Source: Chloroflexota bacterium (GTDB taxonomy: Bacteria > Chloroflexota > Dehalococcoidia > Tepidiformales > Tepidiformaceae). Taken from it: a DNA stretch of 64,000 nucleotides. Of the stretch, positions 32,326-44,659 are shown piece by piece; position 1 is the stretch's first letter; every line of letters begins with the position of its first letter. The position numbers were made by a program, and so were the translations under genes. The notes under the pieces were generated by a model that was not told the DNA's origin, made no database searches, and saw only the letters and a list, made by a program, of their open reading frames with translations. The stretch covers positions 496,001-560,000 of the forward strand of contig JAPPAK010000006.1 of assembly GCA_026705605.1 (NCBI GenBank), written 5' to 3'.

Positions 32326-33129
32326 TTATGCGCCCGCTTCACTGCGCCCCGTAACCCGTTCGACGTACGAACGGACGCGGTCGACGCAGCCCTCGACGCT
32401 TCCCCCTTCGATGGCCGCGATGATAGCAGAGCCCACGATCACGCCCTCCGCTACCTTCCCCACCCGGGCCACCTGCTCTTCCGTCGAAACGCCGAAACCG
32501 ACTGCGATCGGCAGCTCCGTGTGGCGCCGGATGGTCGAGACCAGATCGCCGACCTCGGGCGGAACCTCCGCCCCTCCCGTCGTTCCCGTCACGCTCACGC
32601 AGTAGATGAACGAGTCCGCTACCGCCGCGACCTCCCCCATCCGTTCCTCCGCCGTCGTCGGCGCGACCAGCGGCACGAAGCTCACGCCGTTGGCCGCGCA
32701 CGCCTCCCGGAACGTCCCCGCCTCGTCCGGCGGCAGGTCCACCACGATGAATCCGTCCGCTCCCGCCGCCGCCGCGTCCGCCGCCGCCCGCTCCTCGCCG
32801 TACGCCAGCAAGGGGTTGTCGTACCCCATGAGGACCAGCGGGACCGCCAGTCCCTGCGACCGCGCTTCCCGCACCATCGCGAGGCAATCCGTGAACGTGA
32901 CCCCCGCCGCCACCGCCACCTCGTTCGCGCGCTGGATCGTCGCCCCATCGGCCAGCGGGTCGGTGAACGGCACGCCCAGCTCGATCACGTCCGTGCCGCC
33001 CGCTTCCAGCCCCAGCAGCAGCGGCACTGTCTGTTCGGGCTCGGGGAACCCCGCCATAACGTAGCCCACGAACGCCGCTCGCCCCTCACCGTTCGCCTGT
33101 GCGAACCGCGCCCGCAACCGTTCCGACAT
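32326..33129 (-). CDS. trpA: Tryptophan synthase alpha chain
   Basis: 267-residue TIM barrel that cleaves indole-3-glycerol phosphate and passes indole to TrpB. The catalytic Glu lies in ELGVPFTDPLADG and the catalytic Asp region in VDLPPDEAG; FVPLVAPTT, YCVSVTGTTGG and VGFGVSTEEQV are standard. It starts with ATG 33129, 3 bases after the CPBP gene stop. It is separated from trpB by that membrane protease gene, an uncommon arrangement since trpB and trpA are usually adjacent. Confidence 0.96.
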   Translation of the reverse strand: MSERLRARFAQANGEGRAAFVGYVMAGFPEPEQTVPLLLGLEAGGTDVIELGVPFTDPLADGATIQRANEVAVAAGVTFTDCLAMVREARSQGLAVPLVLMGYDNPLLAYGEERAAADAAAAGADGFIVVDLPPDEAGTFREACAANGVSFVPLVAPTTAEERMGEVAAVADSFIYCVSVTGTTGGAEVPPEVGDLVSTIRRHTELPIAVGFGVSTEEQVARVGKVAEGVIVGSAIIAAIEGGSVEGCVDRVRSYVERVTGRSEAGA

Positions 33130-33132
33130 CCG

Positions 33133-33966
33133 CTACGCCTCCGTCACCAGCAGCAGGGAGAAGCTGGCCGCATTGAACAGCACGTGGAAGGCCACGCTCT
33201 CCCAGAGATTCCCGCGTCGCCAGAACAGCCACGCGAGCACCACGCCGATGATAAAGAATGGAATCAGGCTCCCCGTGTCCAGGTGCACGCCGCTGAAGAC
33301 CGCCCCGGAGATCAGCGCCGCCGGCCAGAACCCCCACCGCTGCAGCCCCCCGAAGATGAGCCCCCGGTAGAAGATCTCTTCTGAGAGCGGCGCCGTCACG
33401 ATCACGGCGATCCCCGTCAGGACGATCGTCGCCGGGTGGCGCATCACCTCGAACGGCACCGTGCTCTCGGGCTGCAGCATCTCGATGTCGAGCGCGTTCA
33501 CGATCGCCGAGTAGGCCGCCACCATCAGGTAGCAGCCCACCACCGCGAACACCGGCCGCCACAGCCCGACGACGCTGAACCCGGTCAGCCTCAGCCGGTC
33601 CGCCAGCTCGCCCATGTTGTGCCGGGTAACCCCCAGCACCACCCCCACGAACGCCACCTGCAGCCCGAGCGTGATCACGAGCGCCAGCGAGAGCGCCGTC
33701 TGGTTTCCGCGGACCTGGGGCGGTTCGGGCAAGTCGACACCTTTTGCCGCCGCCTCCAGCCGCTCGTCGGCGTAGGCGGCAATCTCCCTTGCCTTCACGA
33801 ACACGTCGCCGACGTCGCGCGACTCGCCCACCGTCTCCAGTACGAGCGCGGAGAGGAGAAGCGTCACCGCCAGCGCCGCCAGCCCCCCGAGAATCCCGAA
33901 GCCGACCTGTGGCGGACCCCAGGGCAGGCCCCCTTGCCGCCCCCCGGCGGGCTCCGGCATCACCAC
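33133..33966 (-). CDS. CPBP-family intramembrane metalloprotease
   Basis: 277 residues with about eight hydrophobic segments. The CPBP/Abi signature is clear: EEIFYRG (motif 1, Glu-Glu-x3-Arg), GAVFSGVHLD (motif 2 His) and the late ASFSLLL helix. The N-terminus is Pro/Gly-rich and cytosolic. Family members process prenylated or other membrane substrates, or serve in immunity to bacteriocins; no specific substrate can be inferred. It sits between trpB and trpA, with GGTGG before the ATG and 8 bases after the trpB stop, so it must be co-transcribed with them. Confidence 0.88.
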   Translation of the reverse strand: MVMPEPAGGRQGGLPWGPPQVGFGILGGLAALAVTLLLSALVLETVGESRDVGDVFVKAREIAAYADERLEAAAKGVDLPEPPQVRGNQTALSLALVITLGLQVAFVGVVLGVTRHNMGELADRLRLTGFSVVGLWRPVFAVVGCYLMVAAYSAIVNALDIEMLQPESTVPFEVMRHPATIVLTGIAVIVTAPLSEEIFYRGLIFGGLQRWGFWPAALISGAVFSGVHLDTGSLIPFFIIGVVLAWLFWRRGNLWESVAFHVLFNAASFSLLLVTEA

Positions 33967-33974
33967 CTGCGCGC

Positions 33975-35174
33975 TCAGAGCGTGACGCCCAGCGCCTCGG
34001 CGACCGTGTGCATGTCCTTGTCGCCGCGGCCGCTCAGCCCGATCAGCACGTCACCGCCCTCCCCCAGCTCCTCCGCCAGCCTGATCGCCGGCAGGATCGC
34101 GTGGGCGGGCTCGAGCGCCGGGATGATGCCCTCGCTCCTCGTCAGCCGCTGGAACCCTTCGAGCGCCTCCGCGTCGTCCGCCGCGATGTACTCCGCGCGC
34201 TCGCTCGTCTTCAGCCACGAGTGCTCCGGCCCCACGCCGGGATAGTCGAGCCCCGCCGAGATACTGTGCGTGTCGAGGATCTGCCCCGCCTCGTCCTGCA
34301 GCAGGTACGTGCGCGTCCCGTGCAGTACGCCCGGGCTCCCCGCGACAAGCGTCGCCGCGTTCCGCCCCGGAGCCGAGAGGCCTTCGCCGGCGGCTTCCAC
34401 CCCCACCAGGCGCACCGGGTCGTCGATGAACGGGTGGAACAGTCCGATGGCGTTGCTCCCCCCGCCCACGCAGGCGACCGCGACGTCCGGCAGGCGCCCT
34501 GCCTGCTCCAGCATCTGCTCCCGCGCTTCGCGGCCGATGACGGCCTGGAAGTCCCGCACCATCGTCGGGAAGGGGTGCGGCCCGATCGCCGAGCCGATCA
34601 GGTAGTGCGTCGTCCGCACGTTCGTTACCCAGTCCCGCATCGCCTCGTTGATCGCGTCCTTCAGCGTGCGGCTCCCCGAGTCCACCGGCACCACCTCCGC
34701 CCCCAGCATCTTCATGCGGAACACGTTCAGCGACTGCCGCCGGATGTCCTCCGTGCCCATGTAGACCACGCACTCGAGATTCAGCTTCGCGCATACCGTC
34801 GCCGTCGCCACGCCGTGCTGCCCCGCCCCCGTCTCCGCGATGATGCGCGGCTTCCCGATCCGCTTCGCCAGCAGCGCCTGTCCCAGCGCGTTGTTGATCT
34901 TGTGCGCGCCCGTGTGCGCCAGGTCCTCGCGCTTCAGCCAGATGCGCGCCCCGCCGACCTCCTCCGTCAGGCGCTCCGCCAGGTAGAGCGGCGTCGGCCG
35001 CCCCGCATAGTGGCGCTGCAGCCCCGCCAACTCCTCGGTGAAGGCGGGGTCGTTTCGGGCCGCGTCGTACGCCTCTTCGAGCTCCTCGTGCGCGGCCACC
35101 AGCACCTCGGGGATGTAGCGCCCACCGAACTCCCCGAACCGCGGCGCCAGATCGCTCCTCGTCTCCGTGCTCAT
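33975..35174 (-). CDS. trpB: Tryptophan synthase beta chain
   Basis: 399-residue PLP enzyme that condenses indole with serine. Family text: [13 protein letters not shown] at the N-terminus, the PLP lysine in [42 protein letters not shown], phosphate loop [10 protein letters not shown], and [11 protein letters not shown] at the end. This is the common TrpB1 type, which works with TrpA. The ATG overlaps the trpF stop by 4 bases; the frame upstream of 35174 is antisense noise over trpF. Confidence 0.97.
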
Positions 35175-35908
35175 CGTCCTGTCCCCTTCGCCGCGCGGAT
35201 GAACGCGCGCACCTTCTCGATGTCTTTGTCGCCATCCGTCTCGACGCCACTCGAAACGTCGACCGCCCATGGGTCGACCGCCCCGACCGCTTCCGCCACG
35301 TTCCCGGGATCGAGCCCGCCCGCCAGCATCAGCGGCAGCCGTCGCCCCACCTCGGCCGCAACGTCCCAGTCAAACGACTCGCCTGTGCCGCCCCGCGCCG
35401 ACGCTGAGCCGGTGTCGAGCATGATGCCTGCCGCCACGCCCGGCGTTGCCGTGTCGACCACGTCCTCCGCCGTCGTCTCCGGGTGCACATGGATAGCCTT
35501 GAGCACAGGCGGACGGATTTGCCGCACGAACGACTCGTCCTCCCCGCCCGAGAGCTGGATCAGCTCGAGGCCCGCCGCCTCCGAGATCTCGTTTGCGTCC
35601 TCAACCTCCTGGTCGGCGAATACGCCCACGATCAGCGGTCGCCAGCGCGCGAGCGCGTCGTCGATTGCCTCGTTCCACGCCCCGAACCAGCTCGCGCCGC
35701 GCACCTCGCCCCGCCCCGGCCCCTCGATCTGCGCCACGTCGGGGCTCCTCCGCGTCTCCCGCACCGCCTCGATGATTTCGTAGCACTGCTGCGGCGTGAC
35801 CTGCCGCCGCGACTCCGCGAACATCAACCCGATGAAGTCGGCGCCCGCCTTCACCGCCTCGCGCGCCGTTTCCGCGTCGCGCACCCCGCAGATCTTGACC
35901 CGCGTCAT
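35171..35908 (-). CDS. trpF: Phosphoribosylanthranilate isomerase
   Basis: 245-residue TIM barrel with the catalytic Cys in VKICGVRD and Asp in IMLDTGS, plus LIQLSGGED and [12 protein letters not shown]. It is about 40 residues longer than a typical TrpF. The extra length lies around residues 45-80 ([18 protein letters not shown] and following), between the first strands, and looks like a loop insertion rather than a domain. Start ATG 35908 overlaps the trpC stop. Ends overlapping trpB. Confidence 0.93.
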
Positions 35909-36708
35909 CGTCCCCGTAGCTCCGCGATCATGGCCGCCGGGTCGTCCGCGCGCATGAGCGCCTCCCCGATGAGCACCGCCTTCGCCCCCACCTCCTCGAA
36001 GCGCGCCACATCCTCGCGCGTGCTGATGCCGCTCAGGGCCGCCAGCAGCGCCGCCTCGGGTGCGCCCCCCGCCAGCCGGTCCGTCGTCCCCAGGTCGACG
36101 TCGAAGCTGCGCAGGTCGCGGTTGTTGATACCCACCAGCCTTGCCCCCACCGCCCCCGCACGCTCCATCTCCTCCGCGCTGTTCACCTCCACCATCGCCT
36201 CCATCCCCAGCTCGCGGGAGCACGCCAGCAACCGGCCCAGCGCCTCGTCGTCCAGGCAGGCCACGATCAGCAGGACCGCGTCCGCCCCGTGCGCGCGAGC
36301 CTCCAGCAGCTGGTACTCGTCGATCAGGAAGTCCTTGCGGAGCAGCCCCGGCCGCCCGGCGCCCAGCGCCTCCACCGCCTCCCGCGCCCCCCGCAGGTCC
36401 TCGAGCGTCCCCTTGAACCACGTTGGCTCCGTCAGCACCGAGATGCCCGCGGCCCCGCCACGCGCGTAGCGCAGCGCTTGCTTCGCCGCGTCCATCCCCG
36501 GCGCGATGTCGCCCTTGCTCGGCGAGGCGCGCTTGATCTCCGCGATTACGGCCGGCGGCCGCTCCGCCAGCCGCGCGACGAAGTCGATTGGCGGCGCCGC
36601 CGCGCTCGCAGCGCGCTGCAGCTCCCCAACGGGGATCGCCGCCTTCGCTTCGGCCACGTCCTCACGGCGCTTCGCCACGATCGTTTCCAGGATGCTCGGC
36701 GAGCTCAC
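35905..36708 (-). CDS. trpC: Indole-3-glycerol phosphate synthase
   Basis: 267-residue TIM barrel that closes the indole ring. Family text: ILETIVAKRREDV, VIAEIKRASPSKGDI with the catalytic Lys, ISVLTEPTWFKG, LLRKDFLIDEYQ with the second catalytic Lys, VGINNRDLRSFDVDL and SGISTREDV. GTG 36708 overlaps the trpD stop. Single function; trpF is a separate gene downstream. Confidence 0.96.
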   Translation of the reverse strand: MSSPSILETIVAKRREDVAEAKAAIPVGELQRAASAAAPPIDFVARLAERPPAVIAEIKRASPSKGDIAPGMDAAKQALRYARGGAAGISVLTEPTWFKGTLEDLRGAREAVEALGAGRPGLLRKDFLIDEYQLLEARAHGADAVLLIVACLDDEALGRLLACSRELGMEAMVEVNSAEEMERAGAVGARLVGINNRDLRSFDVDLGTTDRLAGGAPEAALLAALSGISTREDVARFEEVGAKAVLIGEALMRADDPAAMIAELRGR

Positions 36709-37721
36709 GAGTCCTCCTGCGTCAGCCTCACGTACGACTCTGCCACCACCCGGGCCCGCCCCGATGCCAGCGATTGCCGCGCGAGCGCCGCTCCTTCCGA
36801 AAAGCCGTCTGCCAGCCCCGCCGCCCAGCACCCCGCCGCCGCGTTCAGCGTGACGAAGTCCGCAACCGGCCCACCCTGCCCCGCCAGCACCGCCCGCAGC
36901 GTCTTCGCGTTCTCCTCGGGCGTGCCGCCCGCCACCTCGTCGAGCGAGCACCCCTCGACCCCGAACGTAGCGGGCGTTAACTCCTCCTCCCGTACGACGC
37001 CCCCCTCGAGGATCCAGGCGTGGGTCGAGGTCGCCGGACTGATTTCGTCCAGCCCGTCCTCCGAGTGCACGATGACCGCGCGGTCGAGCCCGCGGATACG
37101 AAACGCTTCCGCGAACAGCGGCCCGAGGTGCGCCGACCCAACGCCGGTCAGCTGCGCCCGCGGTTGCGCCGGGTTCGAAATCGGACCGAGCACGTTGAAG
37201 ATCGTGCGCGTGCCCAGCTCCCGCCGTGGACCGCCCACGTGCCGCATCGCCGGGTGGAAGCGCTGCGCGAACAGGAATCCGAACCCGCACTGCTCGATCA
37301 CACGCGCCACCTCCTCGCCCCCGAGATCGATGCGCGCTCCCAGTGCCTCCAGCAGGTCCGCCGAGCCGCAGTTCGAGGACGCCGCTCGGTTGCCGTGCTT
37401 GGCCACGCGCGCCCCCGCCCCCGCCACCACGAACCCCGCCGCCGTCGACACGTTGAACGTGTCCGCCCCGTCGCCGCCCGTGCCGCACAGGTCGACGACG
37501 TTTCCCGCGGCGCACGGCTCTGCATGCCGCTCCATCACCGCCCAGCAGGCCGCCACCACCTCGGGCGTCTCGCCGTGCAGCCGCATCCCCGCCAGGAACG
37601 CCCCGATCTGCGCCTCCGTCGCGGCGCCCGACATGATCGTTTCGAGCGCCGCTGCCGCCGCATCCGGCTCGATGCCGCCGCCGTCGACCAGCGCCCCGAT
37701 GGCCTCCTGGATCGCCGTCAT
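36705..37721 (-). CDS. trpD: Anthranilate phosphoribosyltransferase
   Basis: 338 residues; attaches phosphoribose to anthranilate. Visible motifs are [16 protein letters not shown] (PRPP site), [47 protein letters not shown] and LGPISNPA. Start ATG 37721 overlaps the trpG stop by 4 bases. The upstream frame is antisense noise over trpG. The thymidine phosphorylase-like alternative is excluded by the RFHPAM and GTRTIFN motifs. Confidence 0.97.
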
Positions 37722-38305
37722 CGCTCCCACGTCCCTCCCTGCAGGTTCAGGAAGTTCTGCAGCAGCGCCTTCCCGTGCTCCGTCGCGATCGATTCGGGGT
37801 GGAACTGCACACCCTCGACCGTGAACCGCTCGTGCCGCACCCCCATGATGATGCCGCTCTCCGACCGTGCCGTGACCTCCAGCACGTCCGGCAGGCTTGG
37901 CGGGTCGGCTGCCAGCGAGTGGTAGCGCACTGCCGTGAAGGGTTCCGGCAGCCCCGTGAACACCCCCCGCCCGTCGTGGCTGATCGACGATGTCTTCCCG
38001 TGCTTGATCTCGCCCGCCCCCACGATCTCTCCGTCGAACGCCTCGCAGATGCACTGGTGCCCGAGGCAGACCCCCAGCACCGGCGCCCGCCCCGCGAAGC
38101 GCCGCACGATCTCCGTCGACACCCCCGCCCCCGCCGGCCGCCCCGGCCCCGGCGAGATGACGACCCGATCCGGCGCCAGCGCCTCGCACTCGTCGACCGT
38201 CACCTTGTCGTTCCGATGCACCACGATCTCGGCGCCCAGCTCCGAAAGGTACTGGTAGAGGTTGTAGGTGAAGCTGTCGTAGTTATCGATCAGGAGCGTC
38301 GTCAT
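37718..38305 (-). CDS. trpG: Anthranilate synthase glutamine amidotransferase subunit
   Basis: 195-residue class I glutaminase supplying ammonia to TrpE. The triad is visible: Cys in [10 protein letters not shown], and His and Glu in [17 protein letters not shown] and [11 protein letters not shown] are standard TrpG/PabA text. The protein could in principle also serve a PabB, but no pabB is nearby, and the first gene of this operon encodes an independent p-aminobenzoate route. Overlaps the upstream small gene and trpD by 4 bases each. Confidence 0.95.
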
Positions 38306-38634
38306 CGGTCCAGGCTCCCCTCTGCCGCCAGGTCCTCCGCCACCTCCCGCAGCGCCACCGCCAGCTCCTCCGGCGTGTACCCGTAGCCCCGACGATCCAG
38401 GTGGAACTTCTCCGCGAGATACTCCGTGTCGAGGGCGCTCGGCGAGGCCAGATCGAGGGGGTATGCCGTCCCTGGCTCGCCCAGCAGCACGACGAGGAAG
38501 TAGCCGTCGCCGGCCCCGCGCGCGTACCGCGCCGTCTCCTCCAGCAGCGGCACGAGCGCCAGGTCGAGCGTGTTCGCCCGGTAGAACCGCGCCGCCACGT
38601 GCGTGACCTCTTTCGCCAGCGCCGCGCCCGTCAC
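38302..38634 (-). CDS. Unknown protein in the trp operon
   Basis: 110 residues, GTG start overlapping the HAD gene stop and TGA overlapping the trpG start. No family is recognised. It is acidic and mostly helical, with the segment [20 protein letters not shown] in the centre and [19 protein letters not shown] near the end. No membrane segment, signal peptide or cysteine motif is visible. Both overlaps and the G-ending codon bias of its neighbours support it as a true gene. Any role in tryptophan or folate metabolism would be a guess. Confidence 0.7.
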
Positions 38635-39290
38635 GAGGTCGCTCCCGCGGCTACGCGCCGCACGTAGGCGAGAACCTCGGAGGGGTGTTCCGCCAGCAGG
38701 TCCGGGGCTTCCGCCCGTACCCGCTCCGCGTCCAGCGACCCCCATGCCGCCCCGATGGCGTGGCAGCCCGCCGCCCGACCCGCCTTCACGTCCGCGGGTG
38801 TGTCCCCGACGTACGCGATCTCGCCCGGCTCGTCGAGGCACATCCGCTCCATCGCCACGAACAGCGGGTCGGGCTCCGGCTTGTGCGCCTCGCAGTCGTC
38901 GTGCCCGACGACCGTCGCGAAGCGGTCCAGCAGTCCCGTCTTCGTCAGCTCCCCCGTCGCCCCCCACGAGATCTTCGAGGTCACGACCGCCAGCTCGAGC
39001 CCGTCCGCTCGCATGGCGTCCAGCGTGTCGACGATCCCGGGGAACGGCTCCAGGGTGAAGTCGATGGCGTAGTACCGCTCCCGGTAGCGCTCCGCGAAGC
39101 GCAGCCAGTCGTCGCCCAGCAGGTTCCTCGCCATCTGCTCCAGCGTCCGGCCGTTGTGCTCTCGCCAGAGCGCCTCGGGATCGGCCGGCCGGATGCCGAG
39201 GCAGTCCTCATACGTTCCCGCGAGCGCGTCCATCCGCCCGGGAAGCGTGTTCAGCACCGTGTCGTCGAGGTCCCAGAACACCGCTCTCAT
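38631..39290 (-). CDS. HAD-superfamily hydrolase, phosphoglycolate phosphatase-like
   Basis: 219 residues. HAD motif I is [10 protein letters not shown] with both Asp residues, motif II VVTSKIS, motif III the Lys in [11 protein letters not shown], and motif [18 protein letters not shown]. The helical cap between motifs I and II is of the PGP/subclass I type. Substrate unknown. Start ATG 39290 overlaps the preceding stop. The long frame upstream of this start is antisense noise. In this operon it might remove a phosphorylated by-product, but that is speculation. Confidence 0.88.
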
Positions 39291-40147
39291 GACGGCCGCT
39301 CCGGTCGCGGAACGCCCCGCTCCGCGAAGACTTCCTCCATCACCGGCCACGCCGTGAGCGCTGCCGGGAACCCCGCGTAGACTGCTACCATCCGTAGCGT
39401 CTCGACTACCTCGTCCGGCGTCGCTCCGTGGTTGAGCGCCCCGTTGATGTGCGACCGCAGTTGGTTCGGCCTCCCCGTGAGCGCTGCCAGCATCGCCACC
39501 ACCTCGAGGCTGCGCGTGCGCCGGTCCAGCCGGTCCGTGCCCCACACCTCCCCCAGCGCGAAGTCGACCACGTCGTCGGCCAGCTCCGGCGAGTTCGCCC
39601 GCAATCCCGCATGGCGCGCGTCCGGATCGCCCCCGCCCGAGAGCGTGCGCAGCACGTCGCGCCCCGCCTCCCGTCGCGATGCAAACCCGCCGCCCGCCTC
39701 CTCGGCCTCCACCCCCATCTCCCGCTGGAGCGCCTCCAGGATCGCCGTGCTGTCGTCGCGAGGCTCGGCCAGGCCGAACGCCGCCAGCACCCCCGCCCGC
39801 ACATGCTCGTCCATCGGCAGGTCCGCCAGCGCCCCCGCTTCCACCCACTGCACGTCGACCCCGTCCGCCACCGCCGGCTCCCCCTCCCACGCGCTCGTCG
39901 CGAACACGTTGTAGACCATGTGCCCCTCGGCCGTCGGGATGAACAGCGTCTCGTAGAACGCCTCCTCGATCCCCTCGACGGTCACGCCCATCTCCCCAAG
40001 GATCGCCGCCATTCCCGCGTCCACGTCGTCGTGCTCGGGTAGCAGATCGCCGCCGGGCAGGCTCCATCCCGTTTCGCCCGGCCCGCGGAGCAGGAGGAGC
40101 TTCCCTTCCCGCTCGAGGATCGCCGCCAGATGGATGCGCTGCGCCAT
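39287..40147 (-). CDS. Nudix-like domain fused to carboxymuconolactone decarboxylase-like domain
   Basis: 286 residues. Residues 1-125 look like a Nudix fold (KLLLLRGPGETGWSLPGGDLLPE), but the Nudix box is degenerate: the Arg-Glu of REUxEExGU is missing (AAILGEMGV). Residues about 165-286 match the AhpD/CMD helical domain (RRTRSLEVVAMLAAL, ALNHGATPDEVVETLRMVAVYAGFPAAL), without the CxxC of peroxidase-type AhpD. Activity is unknown. It follows trpE by 2 bases, so it is co-transcribed. This fusion is not one I know from trp operons. Confidence 0.8.
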   Translation of the reverse strand: MAQRIHLAAILEREGKLLLLRGPGETGWSLPGGDLLPEHDDVDAGMAAILGEMGVTVEGIEEAFYETLFIPTAEGHMVYNVFATSAWEGEPAVADGVDVQWVEAGALADLPMDEHVRAGVLAAFGLAEPRDDSTAILEALQREMGVEAEEAGGGFASRREAGRDVLRTLSGGGDPDARHAGLRANSPELADDVVDFALGEVWGTDRLDRRTRSLEVVAMLAALTGRPNQLRSHINGALNHGATPDEVVETLRMVAVYAGFPAALTAWPVMEEVFAERGVPRPERPS

Positions 40148-40149
40148 CG

Positions 40150-41631
40150 CTAGGCCTCCACCTGCTGGGGCGCCTGCTGTGCCGCCGCCAGCTCCGCCTG
40201 GTCGATGGCCCGCTCCAGGGCCAGCATCTTGTTCACGCTTTCCTGGTACTCCGTCGGCGGCTCAGAGTCGTACACGATGCCCCCGCCCGCCTGCAGGTAG
40301 GCGTTGCCGTCCTTCACCACCATCGTGCGGATGGCGATGCAGGTGTCGAGGCTGCCCGCGAAGCTCGCGTACCCGACCGCTCCCGCGTAGATGCCCCGCC
40401 GCTCCTGCTCCAGCTCCGCGATGATCTCCATCGCCCGCACCTTAGGCGCCCCCGAGACCGTGCCCGCCGGGAACACCGAGCGGAACGCGTCGTAGGGCGT
40501 GCGATCCTCCCGCAGTTGCCCCGAGACCCGCGACACGATGTGCATCACGTGCGAGTACCGCTCGATCTCCATGAGCTGGTCCACGCGCACCGTGCCCGGC
40601 TCCGCCACCCGCCCCACGTCGTTCCGCCCCAGGTCCACCAGCATGATGTGTTCCGCCCGCTCCTTCTCGTCCCCCAGCAATTCCTCCGCGAGCGCGTCGT
40701 CCTCCTCGGGCGTCGCGCCCCGCGGACGTGTCCCCGCGATCGGGTGCGTCGTCACTACCCCGTCCTCCACCCGCACCAGCATCTCCGGCGAAGCTCCCAC
40801 GATCTGGAAGTCGTCCAGATCGAGATAGAACATGTACGGCGACGGATTCACCGTGCGCAGCTGCCGGTAGATCGTGAACGGGTGCACCGAGGTCGGGCGC
40901 CGGATCCGCTGCGACGGCACCGCCTGGATGATCTCCCCGCCGACCACGTCCTCCCGGATGCGCTCGACCATCAGCTCGTACCCCTCCCTCCCCACGTTCG
41001 AGACCCCCTGGGCGCTCACCCGCGCGACCTCTGCCACCTCTTCCACCGGGAGGGCCAGCGGCTGGCTCAACCGTCCCAGAATGCCGTCGATCTTCCCCGC
41101 CGCCTCCTCGTACGAAGCCTCGATGTCGCCGTCGAGCCGGCAGTGCGCGACCGCCCGGATCGTGTGGCGCACGTGATCGAACACCACCATCGAATCGCAC
41201 AGCAGGAACATCGCCTCGGGAATGCCGACGGGGTCGTCCTCGTTCGCCGGCACCCGTGGCTCGAAGTGGCGGATCGCCTCGTAGCTCACGTAGCCGACCG
41301 CCCCACCCGTCAGCCGCGGCAGCCCCGGCATCTCGACCGCCTTCAGGCCCGCGAGTGCTTCCTCGAGCGGCTTCAGTGGGTCGCCCTCGTACGCCTCCCC
41401 CGGACCCGTCCGGATCACCTGGTACGGGTTCGCGCCGATGAACGAATAGCGCGCCAGCCGCTCGCCCCCCTCAACCGATTCGAGCAGGAACGAGTACCGT
41501 CCCTCCCGCACCTTCAGGTAGGCCGACACGGGCGTCTCCAGGTCCGCCGCCACCTCGCGGTAAACCGGCGCCAGGTTTCCCCCGCCCGCCGTGGCGAGCG
41601 CCTTCACCTCGTCGAGCGTCGGGTGCAGCAC
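40150..41631 (-). CDS. trpE: Anthranilate synthase component I
   Basis: 493 residues; makes anthranilate from chorismate with TrpG. The LLES tryptophan-binding element is present near residue 49 (FLLESVEGG), suggesting feedback inhibition. The catalytic chorismate-binding half has VPSQRIRRP, SPYMFYLDL, PIAGTRPRGATPEED, MLVDLGRNDVGRV, VFPAGTVSGAPKVRAM and CIAIRTMVVKDG. PIAGTRPRG with Thr/Ala favours TrpE over PabB. GTG 41631 is preceded by GGGGGAG at a good distance. It begins just before the trpS stop. Confidence 0.96.
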   Translation of the reverse strand: MLHPTLDEVKALATAGGGNLAPVYREVAADLETPVSAYLKVREGRYSFLLESVEGGERLARYSFIGANPYQVIRTGPGEAYEGDPLKPLEEALAGLKAVEMPGLPRLTGGAVGYVSYEAIRHFEPRVPANEDDPVGIPEAMFLLCDSMVVFDHVRHTIRAVAHCRLDGDIEASYEEAAGKIDGILGRLSQPLALPVEEVAEVARVSAQGVSNVGREGYELMVERIREDVVGGEIIQAVPSQRIRRPTSVHPFTIYRQLRTVNPSPYMFYLDLDDFQIVGASPEMLVRVEDGVVTTHPIAGTRPRGATPEEDDALAEELLGDEKERAEHIMLVDLGRNDVGRVAEPGTVRVDQLMEIERYSHVMHIVSRVSGQLREDRTPYDAFRSVFPAGTVSGAPKVRAMEIIAELEQERRGIYAGAVGYASFAGSLDTCIAIRTMVVKDGNAYLQAGGGIVYDSEPPTEYQESVNKMLALERAIDQAELAAAQQAPQQVEA

Positions 41632-41633
41632 GA

Positions 41634-42650
41634 TCAGCTCCCCCGGGGCGGTCCGTCCAGGTAGTTGATCGCCATTGCGTCGCGCACCAGCGCCATCGTC
41701 TCCTGCGCCGTCGCTCGCGCCCGCGCCGTCCCCGACTCCAGCGCGTCTCGCACCTCGTCCATGTGCGCCTCGTAGTACGCACGCCGCTCGCGGAACGGGT
41801 CGAGCAGGTTGTTCAGGGCCACCGTGAGCTTCTGCTTCACCTCCACGTCGCCCACCTTGCCGACGACATACCGCTCCTTCAGGTCGTTCACCTCGTCGGT
41901 GTCCGGGTTGAACGCGTCGTGGTACATGAAGACGGGATTCCCCTCGACGTGCCCCGGGTCGGTCGCCCGCAGCCGCGTGGGGTCGGTGAACATGCCCCGC
42001 ACCTTCTTCGCCACCGTGTCCGCGTCGTCCTTCAGTTCGATCGTGTTCCCCACGGACTTCGCCATCTTCGCCTGTCCGTCGAGCCCTACCAGCCGGGGCA
42101 CGCGCCCCACCAGCCCCTCGGGCTCGGGGAACACCTCGCGGAACTGCCGGTTGAAGCGCCGCGCCAGCTCCCGCGTCATCTCGATGTGTGGCAGCTGGTC
42201 CTCCCCCACCGGCACGAGGTGCGCCCGCGGCATCAGGATGTTCGCGACCTGCATCACCGGGTAGGTGAAGAACGCCACCGGCACCGACTTCTTCCCGAAG
42301 TCGTCCATCTCCGCCTTCAGCGTCGGGTTGCGCTGCAGCATCCCCAGCGGCAGGTACCAGCTCAGCCAGGTCGTCAGCTCCGCGTGCTCCGGCACGAGGC
42401 TCTCGATGACGAAGCAGCTCCCTTCCGGGTCAAGCCCCACGGCCAGCCAGTCCAGCGCCACCTCCCACACCGAGTCGCGCACGCGCTCGAGGTGGTCGGC
42501 GTAGTCCGAGACCTGGTAGTCCGCGATCAGGAAGTGGCAGTCGTATTCGTCCTGCAGGCGGATCCAGTTCTCGAGCGCCCCCGCGTAGTGGCCCAGGTGC
42601 AGCGACCCGGTCGGCCGGATGCCGGTCAGGATGCGCTTTCGCTCGCTCAT
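41634..42650 (-). CDS. trpS: Tryptophanyl-tRNA synthetase
   Basis: 338-residue class I synthetase. The HIGH motif is SLHLGHYAGAL, the KMSKS motif is KMAKSVGN, and TGIRPTGS, VPVGEDQLPHIEMTRELA and MFTDPTRLRATDPG are standard. There are two blocks of difference from the short B. subtilis type, but no extra domain. It lies in the T-box controlled operon, so TrpRS itself rises when uncharged tRNA-Trp accumulates. It follows the CADD-like gene by 25 bases. Confidence 0.96.
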   Translation of the reverse strand: MSERKRILTGIRPTGSLHLGHYAGALENWIRLQDEYDCHFLIADYQVSDYADHLERVRDSVWEVALDWLAVGLDPEGSCFVIESLVPEHAELTTWLSWYLPLGMLQRNPTLKAEMDDFGKKSVPVAFFTYPVMQVANILMPRAHLVPVGEDQLPHIEMTRELARRFNRQFREVFPEPEGLVGRVPRLVGLDGQAKMAKSVGNTIELKDDADTVAKKVRGMFTDPTRLRATDPGHVEGNPVFMYHDAFNPDTDEVNDLKERYVVGKVGDVEVKQKLTVALNNLLDPFRERRAYYEAHMDEVRDALESGTARARATAQETMALVRDAMAINYLDGPPRGS

Positions 42651-42675: not shown

Positions 42676-43347
42676 CTAGGCCGCCGCTCCGTAACAGCCG
42701 TCCAGGAACCCCAGCAGCCGCTCGCTCGCGCGCTCCGCCGCCGCGACCACGGCGTCGCCGTCCTCGCACAGTTCTTCGATTGCGGACATCTCTCCGCCCG
42801 AGTGCGCCACGTCCGAGACAAGGTGCACCGAGAAGAACTCGAACTGCTCCGGGAGCAGGTCGTAGTGCTCCGTCAGCCCCTTGATCTTCTCCCACGCGAT
42901 CGCCGGCACCTGCGACTCGTAGGCGAACAACGTCGCCAGCGCTTCCGCCACCGGCGAGTTCTGCGCCACGTCCCCGAAGTGCTCGATGAGCGCCGTCGTC
43001 TCGGGATGGGGCGTCGACCCCTCGACTTCCTCCCCCGAGACGCCGAGCGCCGCCGCGAACTCCAGCCACAGGGCCGGGTGGTTTCGCTCGCCGTGCTCCT
43101 CGTCCCAGAGGTTGTTCAGCAGCAGCTGGCGGATCGCCGGCGACTCCGTGCGCGCGTGGATCGCGCTCAAAAACCGCGGAAACGCCCGCTCGAAGTGGTA
43201 GTACTGTCGCGCGTAGTCCTGCAGCCGTTCGACCTCAAGCGTCCCCGCGCTCCACGCCTGGTAGAACGGGTGCTGCAGCAGCGACCGCTCCGCGATCGCC
43301 TCTCGCATGCGCGACTCCAGCGCCGTCCCTGATTCCGTCATCGTCAT
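42676..43347 (-). CDS. CADD-family heme-oxygenase-like diiron protein, probable p-aminobenzoate synthase
   Basis: A 223-residue all-helical protein. It matches the Chlamydia CADD family: HPFYQAW with Y29, QYYHFERAFPRF, NLWDEEHGERNHPALW, AYESQVP, and HLVSDVAHS. Candidate iron ligands E83, H90, E144, H175, D179 and H182 are all present, as are Y29 and K154, equivalents of the residues implicated in CADD, which makes p-aminobenzoate from a sacrificed tyrosine of its own chain. The usual partner pathway is folate. GGAGG lies 6 bases before the ATG. It is the first gene after the Trp T-box. TenA or PqqC assignment is less likely because their active-site residues differ. Confidence 0.82.
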   Translation of the reverse strand: MTMTESGTALESRMREAIAERSLLQHPFYQAWSAGTLEVERLQDYARQYYHFERAFPRFLSAIHARTESPAIRQLLLNNLWDEEHGERNHPALWLEFAAALGVSGEEVEGSTPHPETTALIEHFGDVAQNSPVAEALATLFAYESQVPAIAWEKIKGLTEHYDLLPEQFEFFSVHLVSDVAHSGGEMSAIEELCEDGDAVVAAAERASERLLGFLDGCYGAAA

Positions 43348-43473
43348 TGCCGACCTCCCTGGTCCCTTGTTCGCACGTTCTTGCTCCCTTTCTGAAGCCG
43401 TTCCGTTCCCCCTTCGCGGCGCCGCCCGTTCCGTCGCTACGGCTACAGGCGGCCCAGAGAAGAACCGGTCCAG

Positions 43474-43505
43474 AAAAAAAACCCCCGGTCCTAAAGGACG
43501 GGGGT
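43474..43505 (-). terminator. T-box regulated intrinsic terminator
   Basis: On the minus strand ACCCCCGTCC, loop TTTA, then GGACCGGGGGT with one bulged C, followed by eight T. It competes with the antiterminator formed by the T-box sequence just upstream. Confidence 0.85.
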
Positions 43506-43765
43506 TCCCGCGGTGCCACCTTCGTTCCCCGGCCCGAAATTGGGGCCGGAGCGCTCAGCGGGCGCGCCTCCGTTTCCGGACGGAGCGCCCGGGGCCGCTA
43601 ACGGGGCCCATCCCGCCCCCGCCTACCCACCGTTTCCGGCTTCAGCGAGGGAGCTCCCGGGTCCATTCGCCGCTCTCGTACCTGCCGGGCTCTCACTGTT
43701 CCCGGTTCGCTGCAAGGCCGCCTGAGCGGGTACTCCTCCCGATCGCCGCTTCTTCGATTCAGTTG
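43506..43765 (-). promoter_or_regulatory. T-box riboswitch, Trp-specific
   Basis: Leader RNA of the trp operon, read on the minus strand. Stem I has the AGGAGTA bulge motif near its base and the distal loop CAGTGAGAGCC. The specifier sits in GAATGGACC, so the codon is UGG (43665-43663), tryptophan. The conserved T-box TGGCACCGCGG lies at 43518-43508, directly before the terminator. Uncharged tRNA-Trp should pair with both sites and stabilise the antiterminator, turning on the operon from the CADD-like gene through trpS, trpE and on to trpA. Ends are approximate. Confidence 0.92.
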
Positions 43766-43772
43766 TCGTTCG

Positions 43773-43801
43773 AGCCTAGGTTCCCAGGCCCGACCGGTCA
43801 A
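43773..43801 (-). promoter_or_regulatory. Promoter of the trp operon
   Basis: On the minus strand TTGACC (43801-43796) and TAGGCT (43778-43773) are separated by exactly 17 bases. Transcription would begin near 43765, at the 5' end of the T-box leader. No other promoter of this quality lies upstream of the operon. Confidence 0.75.
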
Positions 43802-43813
43802 TACGCGGAACGC

Positions 43814-44659
43814 CTACTCCGCCGGCAGGAACTGGTTCAGCGCCGACAGCGCGTCCGGTTCCGTGAGCAGCGGCGGATGCGCCGCCCCCGTGACCTCGAC
43901 CACCTGCGCGTCCGGGTGCTCGCGACCCATCTTCGCCGCCGTCTCCTTGCTCAGGATGTCGCTGTGCTCTCCCCGCAGTACGAGGATGGGGCACTTGATC
44001 GAGCGGTACTGCCGCCAGAGCTCGTCCTGCTCGGGCACGCCCATCCCCACGTGACGAGCCGCCGGGTCCATCTTCCACACGTACAGCCCGTTGTCGCTCA
44101 GCCGCACATTCCAGCGCGCGTAGTCCTCGACTCGCTGGTTCGAGAGCCTCGCGGCCGCGGGGAAGTGCTCCTTGTAGTAGTTCACCACCGCCTTCAGATC
44201 GGGGAAGGCGGTCGGCGTCGAATCCGTCCGGTCGCTGATGCGGCTGACGCCGCCGCCATCCACGTCCGGCCCGATGTCGTTCATCACGAGCGCCGTCACG
44301 CGCTCCGGGTGGTGCGCCGCGTAGGCCATCGCGACCCCGCCGCCCATCGCCGTTCCCACGAGCGCGAAGCGCTGTATCCCCAGCGCCTCCCGCACCGCCT
44401 CGACGTCGGACACGTAGACGCTCTGCGTGTACTCGTCGTGGGGTCCCCAGGCCGATTCCCCCCGGCCTCGGAAGTCCAGCGCGAACACCTGGAAGCGTTC
44501 CGCCAGCTCCGTGGCGGCGCGGTCGAACATCCGCGCCTGCCCTACCAGGTTGTGCAACAGCACCACGCTGGGCGCCGACGCCGAACCTCGCGCGATGAGG
44601 TGCTGCCGCAGCCCATTCGCTTCGACGAAGATATCCCGCACACCGAACGCACTCGTCAT
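43814..44659 (-). CDS. Alpha/beta hydrolase-fold protein lacking the nucleophile serine
   Basis: 281 residues with a clear alpha/beta hydrolase fold: VVLLHNLVGQARMFD, ALDFRGRGES, the nucleophile elbow VGTAMGGGVAMAYA, the acid in RGEHSDIL, and a His in AAHPPLL. The elbow should read G-x-S-x-G, but residue 104 is Ala (codon GCG at 44348-44350). With the usual acid and His still present, this is either a pseudoenzyme or uses another residue. Its -10-like TACAAT lies 29 bases upstream of the ATG. It is transcribed towards the trp promoter and ends 13 bases before it. Confidence 0.85.
   Translation of the reverse strand: MTSAFGVRDIFVEANGLRQHLIARGSASAPSVVLLHNLVGQARMFDRAATELAERFQVFALDFRGRGESAWGPHDEYTQSVYVSDVEAVREALGIQRFALVGTAMGGGVAMAYAAHHPERVTALVMNDIGPDVDGGGVSRISDRTDSTPTAFPDLKAVVNYYKEHFPAAARLSNQRVEDYARWNVRLSDNGLYVWKMDPAARHVGMGVPEQDELWRQYRSIKCPILVLRGEHSDILSKETAAKMGREHPDAQVVEVTGAAHPPLLTEPDALSALNQFLPAE

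Follow-up and report, generated by a model that had tools for sequence, protein, structure and literature searches.

A CADD-type gene for a predicted self-sacrificing p-aminobenzoate synthase at the head of a tryptophan T-box operon in Tepidiformaceae

Genes at the locus

The stretch of DNA analysed here (the window: 64,000 nucleotides of contig JAPPAK010000006.1, from a Chloroflexota bacterium of the Tepidiformaceae) contains a tryptophan biosynthesis operon on its reverse strand, the first gene of which encodes a protein resembling CADD of Chlamydia trachomatis (CT610). Behind a leader of the T-box type, the gene order is CADD-trpS-trpE-Nudix/CMD-HAD-110-aa open reading frame (ORF)-trpG-trpD-trpC-trpF-trpB-CAAX protease-trpA (Table 1), with gaps of 25 bases between CADD and trpS, 2 bases between trpS and trpE, and -4 to 8 bases after trpE. 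The comparisons reported below make it probable that this gene, placed first in a trp operon with a tryptophan-specific T-box, specifies a self-sacrificing p-aminobenzoate (pABA) synthase, in all likelihood the sole source of pABA encoded in its genome.

Identity and residues of the CADD-type protein

The 223-residue product (ATG start, with AGGGAGGT upstream of the start codon) belongs to family TIGR04305 fol_rel_CADD, scoring 229.8 bits against a cut-off of 200. It shares the heme-oxygenase-like fold with PqqC, TenA, BesC, UndA and HrmI, and its predicted structure is closer to CADD than to TenA or PqqC; alignment, family scores and structure model all favour CADD over TenA and PqqC, in agreement with the type assigned by an earlier sequence-only reading of this DNA. 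The six diiron ligands proposed in that reading (E83, H90, E144, H175, D179 and H182; three histidines and three carboxylates, as CADD membership demands) and Y29 are indeed retained, being invariant in all 47 aligned CADD relatives, and K154 falls in the class conserved in at least 90% of them.

Alignment with Chlamydia CADD places Y29, Y45 and K154 opposite its Y27, Y43 and K152, and by numbering offset the same three residues are matched to Tyr25, Tyr41 and Lys159 of Nitrosomonas europaea NePabS, all of which are essential in that enzyme, Tyr25 and Lys159 being consumed (PMC11965152). The sequence-only reading was correct that this lysine of CADD is kept as K154, but the auxiliary role that it gave this residue does not hold, the equivalent lysine of CADD and NePabS being the amine donor (PMC11965152). 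A position of Y29 or K154 far from the metal site would not count against the CADD assignment, because Tyr27 and Lys152 of CADD itself lie about 14 Å from the metals (PMC13108848). The window protein has Y143 like CADD (Y141) and F171 like NePabS (F177), a Tyr/Phe combination that is also found in the F148Y variant of NePabS, which has similar activity with Fe/Fe and Mn/Fe (PMC11965152).

The T-box leader

In a 601-base search with cmscan, the leader matched the T-box model RF00230 over its full length (positions 1-219 of 219; 72.6 bits, E 8.2e-16), under the Rfam gathering score of 93, so that the window copy is not a formal member of the family and a default Rfam scan of the window lists nothing. 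Scans of the whole loci of six relatives at gathering level listed a leader at the same place in the operon in L085, L093 and L098, and none in L075, L084 and L105. The window leader has the anatomy of a T-box (a UGG specifier, the motif GGTGGCACCGCG, and a hairpin with a T run) and would be expected to work as one, which upholds the earlier placement of a UGG T-box directly ahead of the CADD gene. The 52-nt stretch holding the terminator folds at -22 kcal/mol, as do 13 of 200 shuffled sequences or better, and a simple consensus terminator scan made no call on the hairpin. One leader per genome was scanned for the specifier loop, and all 29 have it in the form xAAUGGNYC (G297, whose leader is cut by a contig end, is outside this set). 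The bare T-box pattern is no proof by itself: L042, L091 and L209 have a match on their opposite strand, L094 has a further one upstream, and L201 has one as well. The specifier check gives the motif calls below more weight.

pABA and folate genes in the genome

The genome from which the window derives (G000; 2.79 Mb in 9 contigs, 94.4% complete) encodes one CADD. Its two matches to the chorismate-binding domain PF00425 are TrpE and an isochorismate synthase (TIGR00543, 316.1 against a cut-off of 224.75), and its sole class IV aminotransferase match (PF01063) is IlvE (TIGR01122, 341.4 against 245.55). Of the genes that the sequence-only reading had proposed to seek, folP is present, whereas PabB and PabC, and with them a canonical PabABC set, were not found in this 94.4% complete assembly. 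Folate synthesis is likely, since FolP scores over its cut-off (270.5 against 162.6), folK adjoins folP, and folE is present. Two dihydropteroate-synthase-type proteins exceed the cut-off (G000:C4:722049-722816 and G000:C7:340236-340982), as in many genomes of the family. TrpE of the operon was considered as a double for PabB and rejected: it scores 304.6 with the pabB model TIGR00553, under the cut-off of 328.4, and carries PIAGT, which we take to mark the TrpE type, not PIKGT; a double role would still be enzymatically possible.

Conservation of the wiring

All 28 family genomes in which the sequence extends far enough carry a T-box motif ahead of CADD (G300 and G107 have contig ends there and are not counted). 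CADD follows the leader as first gene in the window, as the sequence-only reading had it, and it does so too in the rest of that genus, in G271 and at the distant locus L105; the other genera examined place a TrpB-like match between the motif and CADD. This match is 30-38% to TrpB, and its L082 copy, the only one scored, reaches 669.2 with TIGR01415 against a cut-off of 518.85. Both the TrpB-like gene before CADD (L082:2434-3789) and a 150-aa ORF after it (L082:4545-4997) are missing at the window locus; an ORF without an assigned family lies between CADD and trpS in both loci checked (150 aa in L082, 143 aa in L084). The locus L204 (genome G195) has the T-box motif, the TrpB-like match and the trp operon, with CADD missing between the TrpB-like gene and trpS.

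TIGR04305 exceeds its cut-off in 41 of 294 genomes of the class Dehalococcoidia, 20 of these being among the 25 members of the family sampled. Of 80 named CADD loci, 26 have the T-box motif upstream, namely 25 of the Tepidiformaceae type and L105; a contig end truncates L096, and the remaining 53 have no motif in the DNA compared, some with little upstream sequence. L105 (genome G055, from a distant family) has a looser version of the arrangement: T-box motif, CADD, MFS transporter, ChrB_C protein, trpS, trpE and trpG.

These distributions bear on whether CADD sits in the operon by chance. It may make pABA from an incidental position, with the T-box serving trpS and the trp genes as elsewhere in the Dehalococcoidia, basal read-through sufficing for CADD and tryptophan exerting no meaningful control over the supply of pABA. 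In favour of this, neither a trp gene nor a T-box motif appears in the DNA compared at the CADD loci of family f2 (L069, L070) or at the near loci L092 and L095. The constancy of the position (28 of 28 in the family sample) and the recurrence of the order T-box-CADD-trpS in the distant family of L105 speak against an accident, and a single-turnover enzyme would need high expression, so that its leader should matter more than that of a catalytic enzyme. We give an incidental position a substantial chance, somewhat short of even.

Wolfe's vitamins contain pABA. They are included in one routine medium of Tepidiforma isolates, and Tepidiforma flava is described as strictly aerobic (PMC10284905), which fits the need of an O2-using CADD. 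In the genome of T. flava (G184/L138), a member of the same family, CADD is broken; residual sequencing errors are suspected, because the neighbouring hydrolase and TrpB-like genes also match only in pieces and the assembly was made from nanopore and Illumina reads (PMC10284905). K154 is readable in the largest piece, yet this genome is left out of the counts of K154 below.

Loss of K154 in relatives with PabB

PF00425 was sought in 38 genomes of the family; second and third matches were typed by motif and six proteins by NCBIfam, the trpE matches of G265, G299 and G302, in which no CADD was found, being left out of the motif typing. Position 154 can be read in an unbroken CADD in 29 genomes; 23 of these (G000 included) keep K154 and six have lost it, with Thr in G077 and G306 (group g4) and in G107, and Val in G173, G295 and G297 (group g7). 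A PabB-type enzyme was found in none of the 23 K154-keeping genomes (completeness 81-98%, several incomplete), and in five of the six K-less genomes PabB exceeds the TIGR00553 cut-off (G306, 368.6; G077, 369; G173, 339.8; G297, 335.4; G295, 333.2). G206 and G296, from the genus in which PabB is fused to its partner, keep K154 and have no PabB that could be found.

The putative PabC partner is a class IV aminotransferase gene overlapping pabB in G306, such a match just behind pabB in G077, and a domain fused to PabB in one protein in G173, G295 and G297, which also have other chorismate-binding copies without the HPTPAVGG motif. A second Aminotran_4 match occurs in the five pabB genomes and in G271 and G265, both without PabB. 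All of the class IV aminotransferase domains of the pabB genomes, fusions included, score under the NCBIfam PabC cut-offs (the L202 gene 135.7 against 176.85), and the name PabC rests on PF01063 and on the domain being fused to PabB or encoded next to it.

In the class sample, where 89 of 294 genomes have PabB over the TIGR00553 cut-off, CADD and PabB co-occur in only three (G077, G173 and G231) against 12.4 expected (Fisher p 3.6e-4); setting aside the K-less G077 and G173 leaves one against 11.8 expected (p 7.6e-6), and outside the family one of 21 CADD genomes has PabB (p 0.003), none of these values being corrected for relatedness. In the TrpS+TrpE+TrpG tree the distribution of K154 needs three changes, all forced by starred branches, and that of pabB needs two. 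A 39-row CADD tree forces only two losses of K154 and joins the K-less rows of g4 and g7 weakly (44/72), and a 33-row tree groups all five g7 rows (92/85); two losses may be regarded as firm and three as likely on these topologies. Three independent pairs are available, two in the same direction and one without a difference, which is too few for significance in a sign test. Ten CADD rows from outside the family, without T-box or trp wiring, all keep K154, which makes its loss, among the rows compared, a feature of this family alone.

The 27 K-intact rows (23 of the family, 4 outside) share 57 invariant columns, seven of which have changed in g4 and six in the K-less g7 rows. Y49, Y143 and K154 have changed in both groups and Y45 in g7; in G107, readable over 22 of the 57 columns, Y143 and K154 have changed; and the metal ligands and Y29 have changed in none of the K-less rows where they are readable. 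The changed residues include positions marked by mutagenesis of NePabS, in which Tyr41 and Lys159 are essential and Tyr45 is important (PMC11965152). Relay residues are enriched among the changed columns with a p value of 0.0066 that is descriptive, since the set was picked from that paper after the changes had been seen. The near-exclusion of CADD and PabB, together with the joint loss of K154, Y49 and Y143 in all five pabB genomes, makes it most likely that K-intact CADD is the source of pABA.

The K-less genes are nevertheless maintained. In G077, G306, G173, G295 and G297 they remain behind the T-box motif, between the TrpB-like match and trpS, with six ligands and Y29 in place, and their ratios of nonsynonymous to synonymous substitution (dN/dS, Nei-Gojobori; a crude measure on few pairs) are low: three g7 pairs give 0.060-0.074 and the g4 pair gives 0.128, compared with 0.070-0.178 for five K-intact pairs and 0.051-0.134 for trpS over the same nine pairs. 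Chiefly on these grounds, a second function, independent of K154 and perhaps related to tryptophan or indole, in which the same dimetal site and conceivably Y29 take part, may be what keeps CADD in the trp operon, pABA being an additional product of K-intact members; the heme-oxygenase-like dimetal enzymes AetD and SktA act on tryptophans (PMC13108848). There is no candidate substrate, the long g4 branch (0.77 in the 39-row tree) could reflect relaxed constraint, G195 has lost the gene entirely, and the retention of K154 in all ten outside rows confines the K-less state to the family as far as the comparison reaches. A second role of some kind is probable; that this role, and not the supply of pABA, accounts for the place of CADD in the trp operon is possible but on balance doubtful.

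Other genes of the operon

Most family loci examined have a match to the fusion of a Nudix-like and a carboxymuconolactone-decarboxylase-type (CMD) domain placed between trpE and trpG, and the Nudix box of the window protein, judged by eye against the consensus, has a degenerate catalytic part. It was considered, together with the HAD-family hydrolase, as a missing dihydroneopterin triphosphate pyrophosphatase/phosphatase pair; with most of the catalytic residues of the box absent and no Pfam Nudix domain reported, this is not claimed. The 110-aa ORF overlaps its neighbours by 4 bases, and tblastn matches it to sequences of relatives that are 41-96% identical. The gene of the CAAX-type intramembrane protease occupies the same place between trpB and trpA in many relatives.

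Table 1. Features of the CADD-trp operon and its leader in the window
Feature	Coordinates	Strand	Basis
Predicted CADD-type self-sacrificing pABA synthase, K154-intact	42676..43347	-	TIGR04305, residues
T-box-type leader, Trp specificity	43491..43755	-	RF00230 match, cmscan
UGG specifier codon in GAA-UGG-ACC	43663..43665	-	sequence
Antiterminator T-box motif GGTGGCACCGCG	43509..43520	-	sequence and Rfam alignment
Terminator-like hairpin, then T run (T8 tail)	43477..43509	-	folding
trpS, tryptophan--tRNA ligase	41634..42650	-	TIGR00233, 274.9 vs 176.75
trpE, anthranilate synthase component I	40150..41631	-	TIGR00564, 583.2 vs 517.7
Nudix-like + CMD-domain fusion	39287..40147	-	PF02627, 67.8 bits; weak Nudix-family matches
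HAD-family hydrolase	38631..39290	-	PF13419, 106.9 bits
Conserved 110-aa ORF	38302..38634	-	no Pfam or NCBIfam match
trpG/pabA-type glutamine amidotransferase	37718..38305	-	TIGR00566, 246.1 vs 121.05
trpD	36705..37721	-	TIGR01245, 358.6 vs 199.05
trpC	35905..36708	-	NF001377, 273.7 vs 260
trpF, phosphoribosylanthranilate isomerase	35171..35908	-	best model NF002298, 175.6, under cut-off of 215; placed between trpC and trpB
trpB	33975..35174	-	TIGR00263, 611.1 vs 392.45
Rce1-like CAAX protease inside operon	33133..33966	-	PF02517, 73.4 bits
trpA	32326..33129	-	TIGR00262, 225.3 vs 102.35

Proposed control of pABA supply by tryptophan

Gene order suggests that the supply of pABA is switched on by tryptophan starvation. 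We infer the chemistry of the window protein, the antitermination, the transcript and the physiological purpose as follows. Uncharged tRNA-Trp would pair with the UGG specifier and stabilise the antiterminator, and RNA polymerase would then pass the terminator into CADD-trpS-trpEG-trpDCFBA. Each CADD chain would use its dimetal site and O2 to cut out the Y29 side chain and would draw the amino group from K154; no chain could yield more than one pABA molecule. With such a single-turnover enzyme the rate of synthesis would set the supply, so that the output of the T-box would tie pABA for FolP to the translational demand for tryptophan. A promoter of its own behind the T-box, which would make CADD expression independent of tryptophan and for which 127 bases are available between the T run and the start codon, is improbable, given the operon-like spacing of the downstream genes and a search of 43340-43860 that found no promoter of the sigma-70-like type, the one type sought.

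Several observations weigh against the proposal that K-intact CADD makes the pABA of these genomes under the control of the T-box. G107 (98% complete), with K154T, and G195 (97% complete), with an operon devoid of CADD, both have FolP over the cut-off and no PabB that could be found; such a lack of intact CADD and PabB must therefore be tolerated or be met by a third source of pABA. Conversely, G231 holds both a K-intact CADD and PabB. FolB was not found in the window's genome. The co-lost residue Y143 (CADD Y141) is naturally Phe in NePabS and several relatives, and the low dN/dS of the K-less members suggests that the gene is not only a source of pABA. On the side of regulation, the leader is below the Rfam gathering threshold, its terminator is not strong in comparison with shuffles (z -1.65), and CADD might escape the T-box through an internal promoter that went undetected.

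The sequence-only reading had offered a choice between a supply of pABA tied to chorismate diversion and a different product in this lineage; the comparison points to both, with pABA the probable product of K154-intact members and another role in the K-less members that have pabB. The five pabB-bearing genomes found have lost the amine-donating lysine and the relay tyrosines of CADD, but its metal site, Y29 and T-box persist in them and the gene is still under purifying selection. Tentatively, this could mean that CADD has a second, Trp-regulated function independent of K154, and that in K-intact members the Trp T-box sets the supply of a folate precursor stoichiometrically.

Relation to known systems and significance

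The closest known self-sacrificing pABA synthases are CADD of C. trachomatis and NePabS of N. europaea, from which the window gene differs in its place as first gene of a trp operon with a Trp T-box in front. In Bacillus subtilis, trpG/pabA lies in the folate operon under the control of TRAP, a known cross-link of tryptophan and folate; there the shared amidotransferase is placed in the folate operon, whereas here a predicted chorismate-independent pABA synthase is placed in the trp operon. Putative self-sacrificing pABA synthases in Chloroflexi have been mentioned (PMC11965152), and Trp-related T-boxes precede trpE and a trpB-like gene in Dehalococcoides, likewise upstream of trp genes, but the available part of that report mentions no CADD (PMC2494555), which in the window precedes trpS-trpE. 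No description of the linkage of CADD to a trp T-box, or of the loss of K154 in pabB-bearing relatives, was found in the open-licence PMC literature (subscription papers lie outside that search), as the sequence-only reading had anticipated for the wiring; thus, as far as that literature shows, the chemistry of CADD and the Trp-related T-boxes of Dehalococcoides are known, and the linkage and the loss of K154 with pabB appear to be new.

If the proposal is true, this would be, within the same literature, the first suicide-enzyme pathway to a vitamin precursor placed on an amino-acid starvation switch. The K-less relatives offer a test by evolution of the residue requirements of the self-sacrificing reaction, several positions altered in those with pabB being ones that mutagenesis of NePabS marked as important, and a second function of CADD-type proteins becomes testable. 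If control by the T-box is true, external tryptophan would cause a shortage of pABA and folate in such bacteria.
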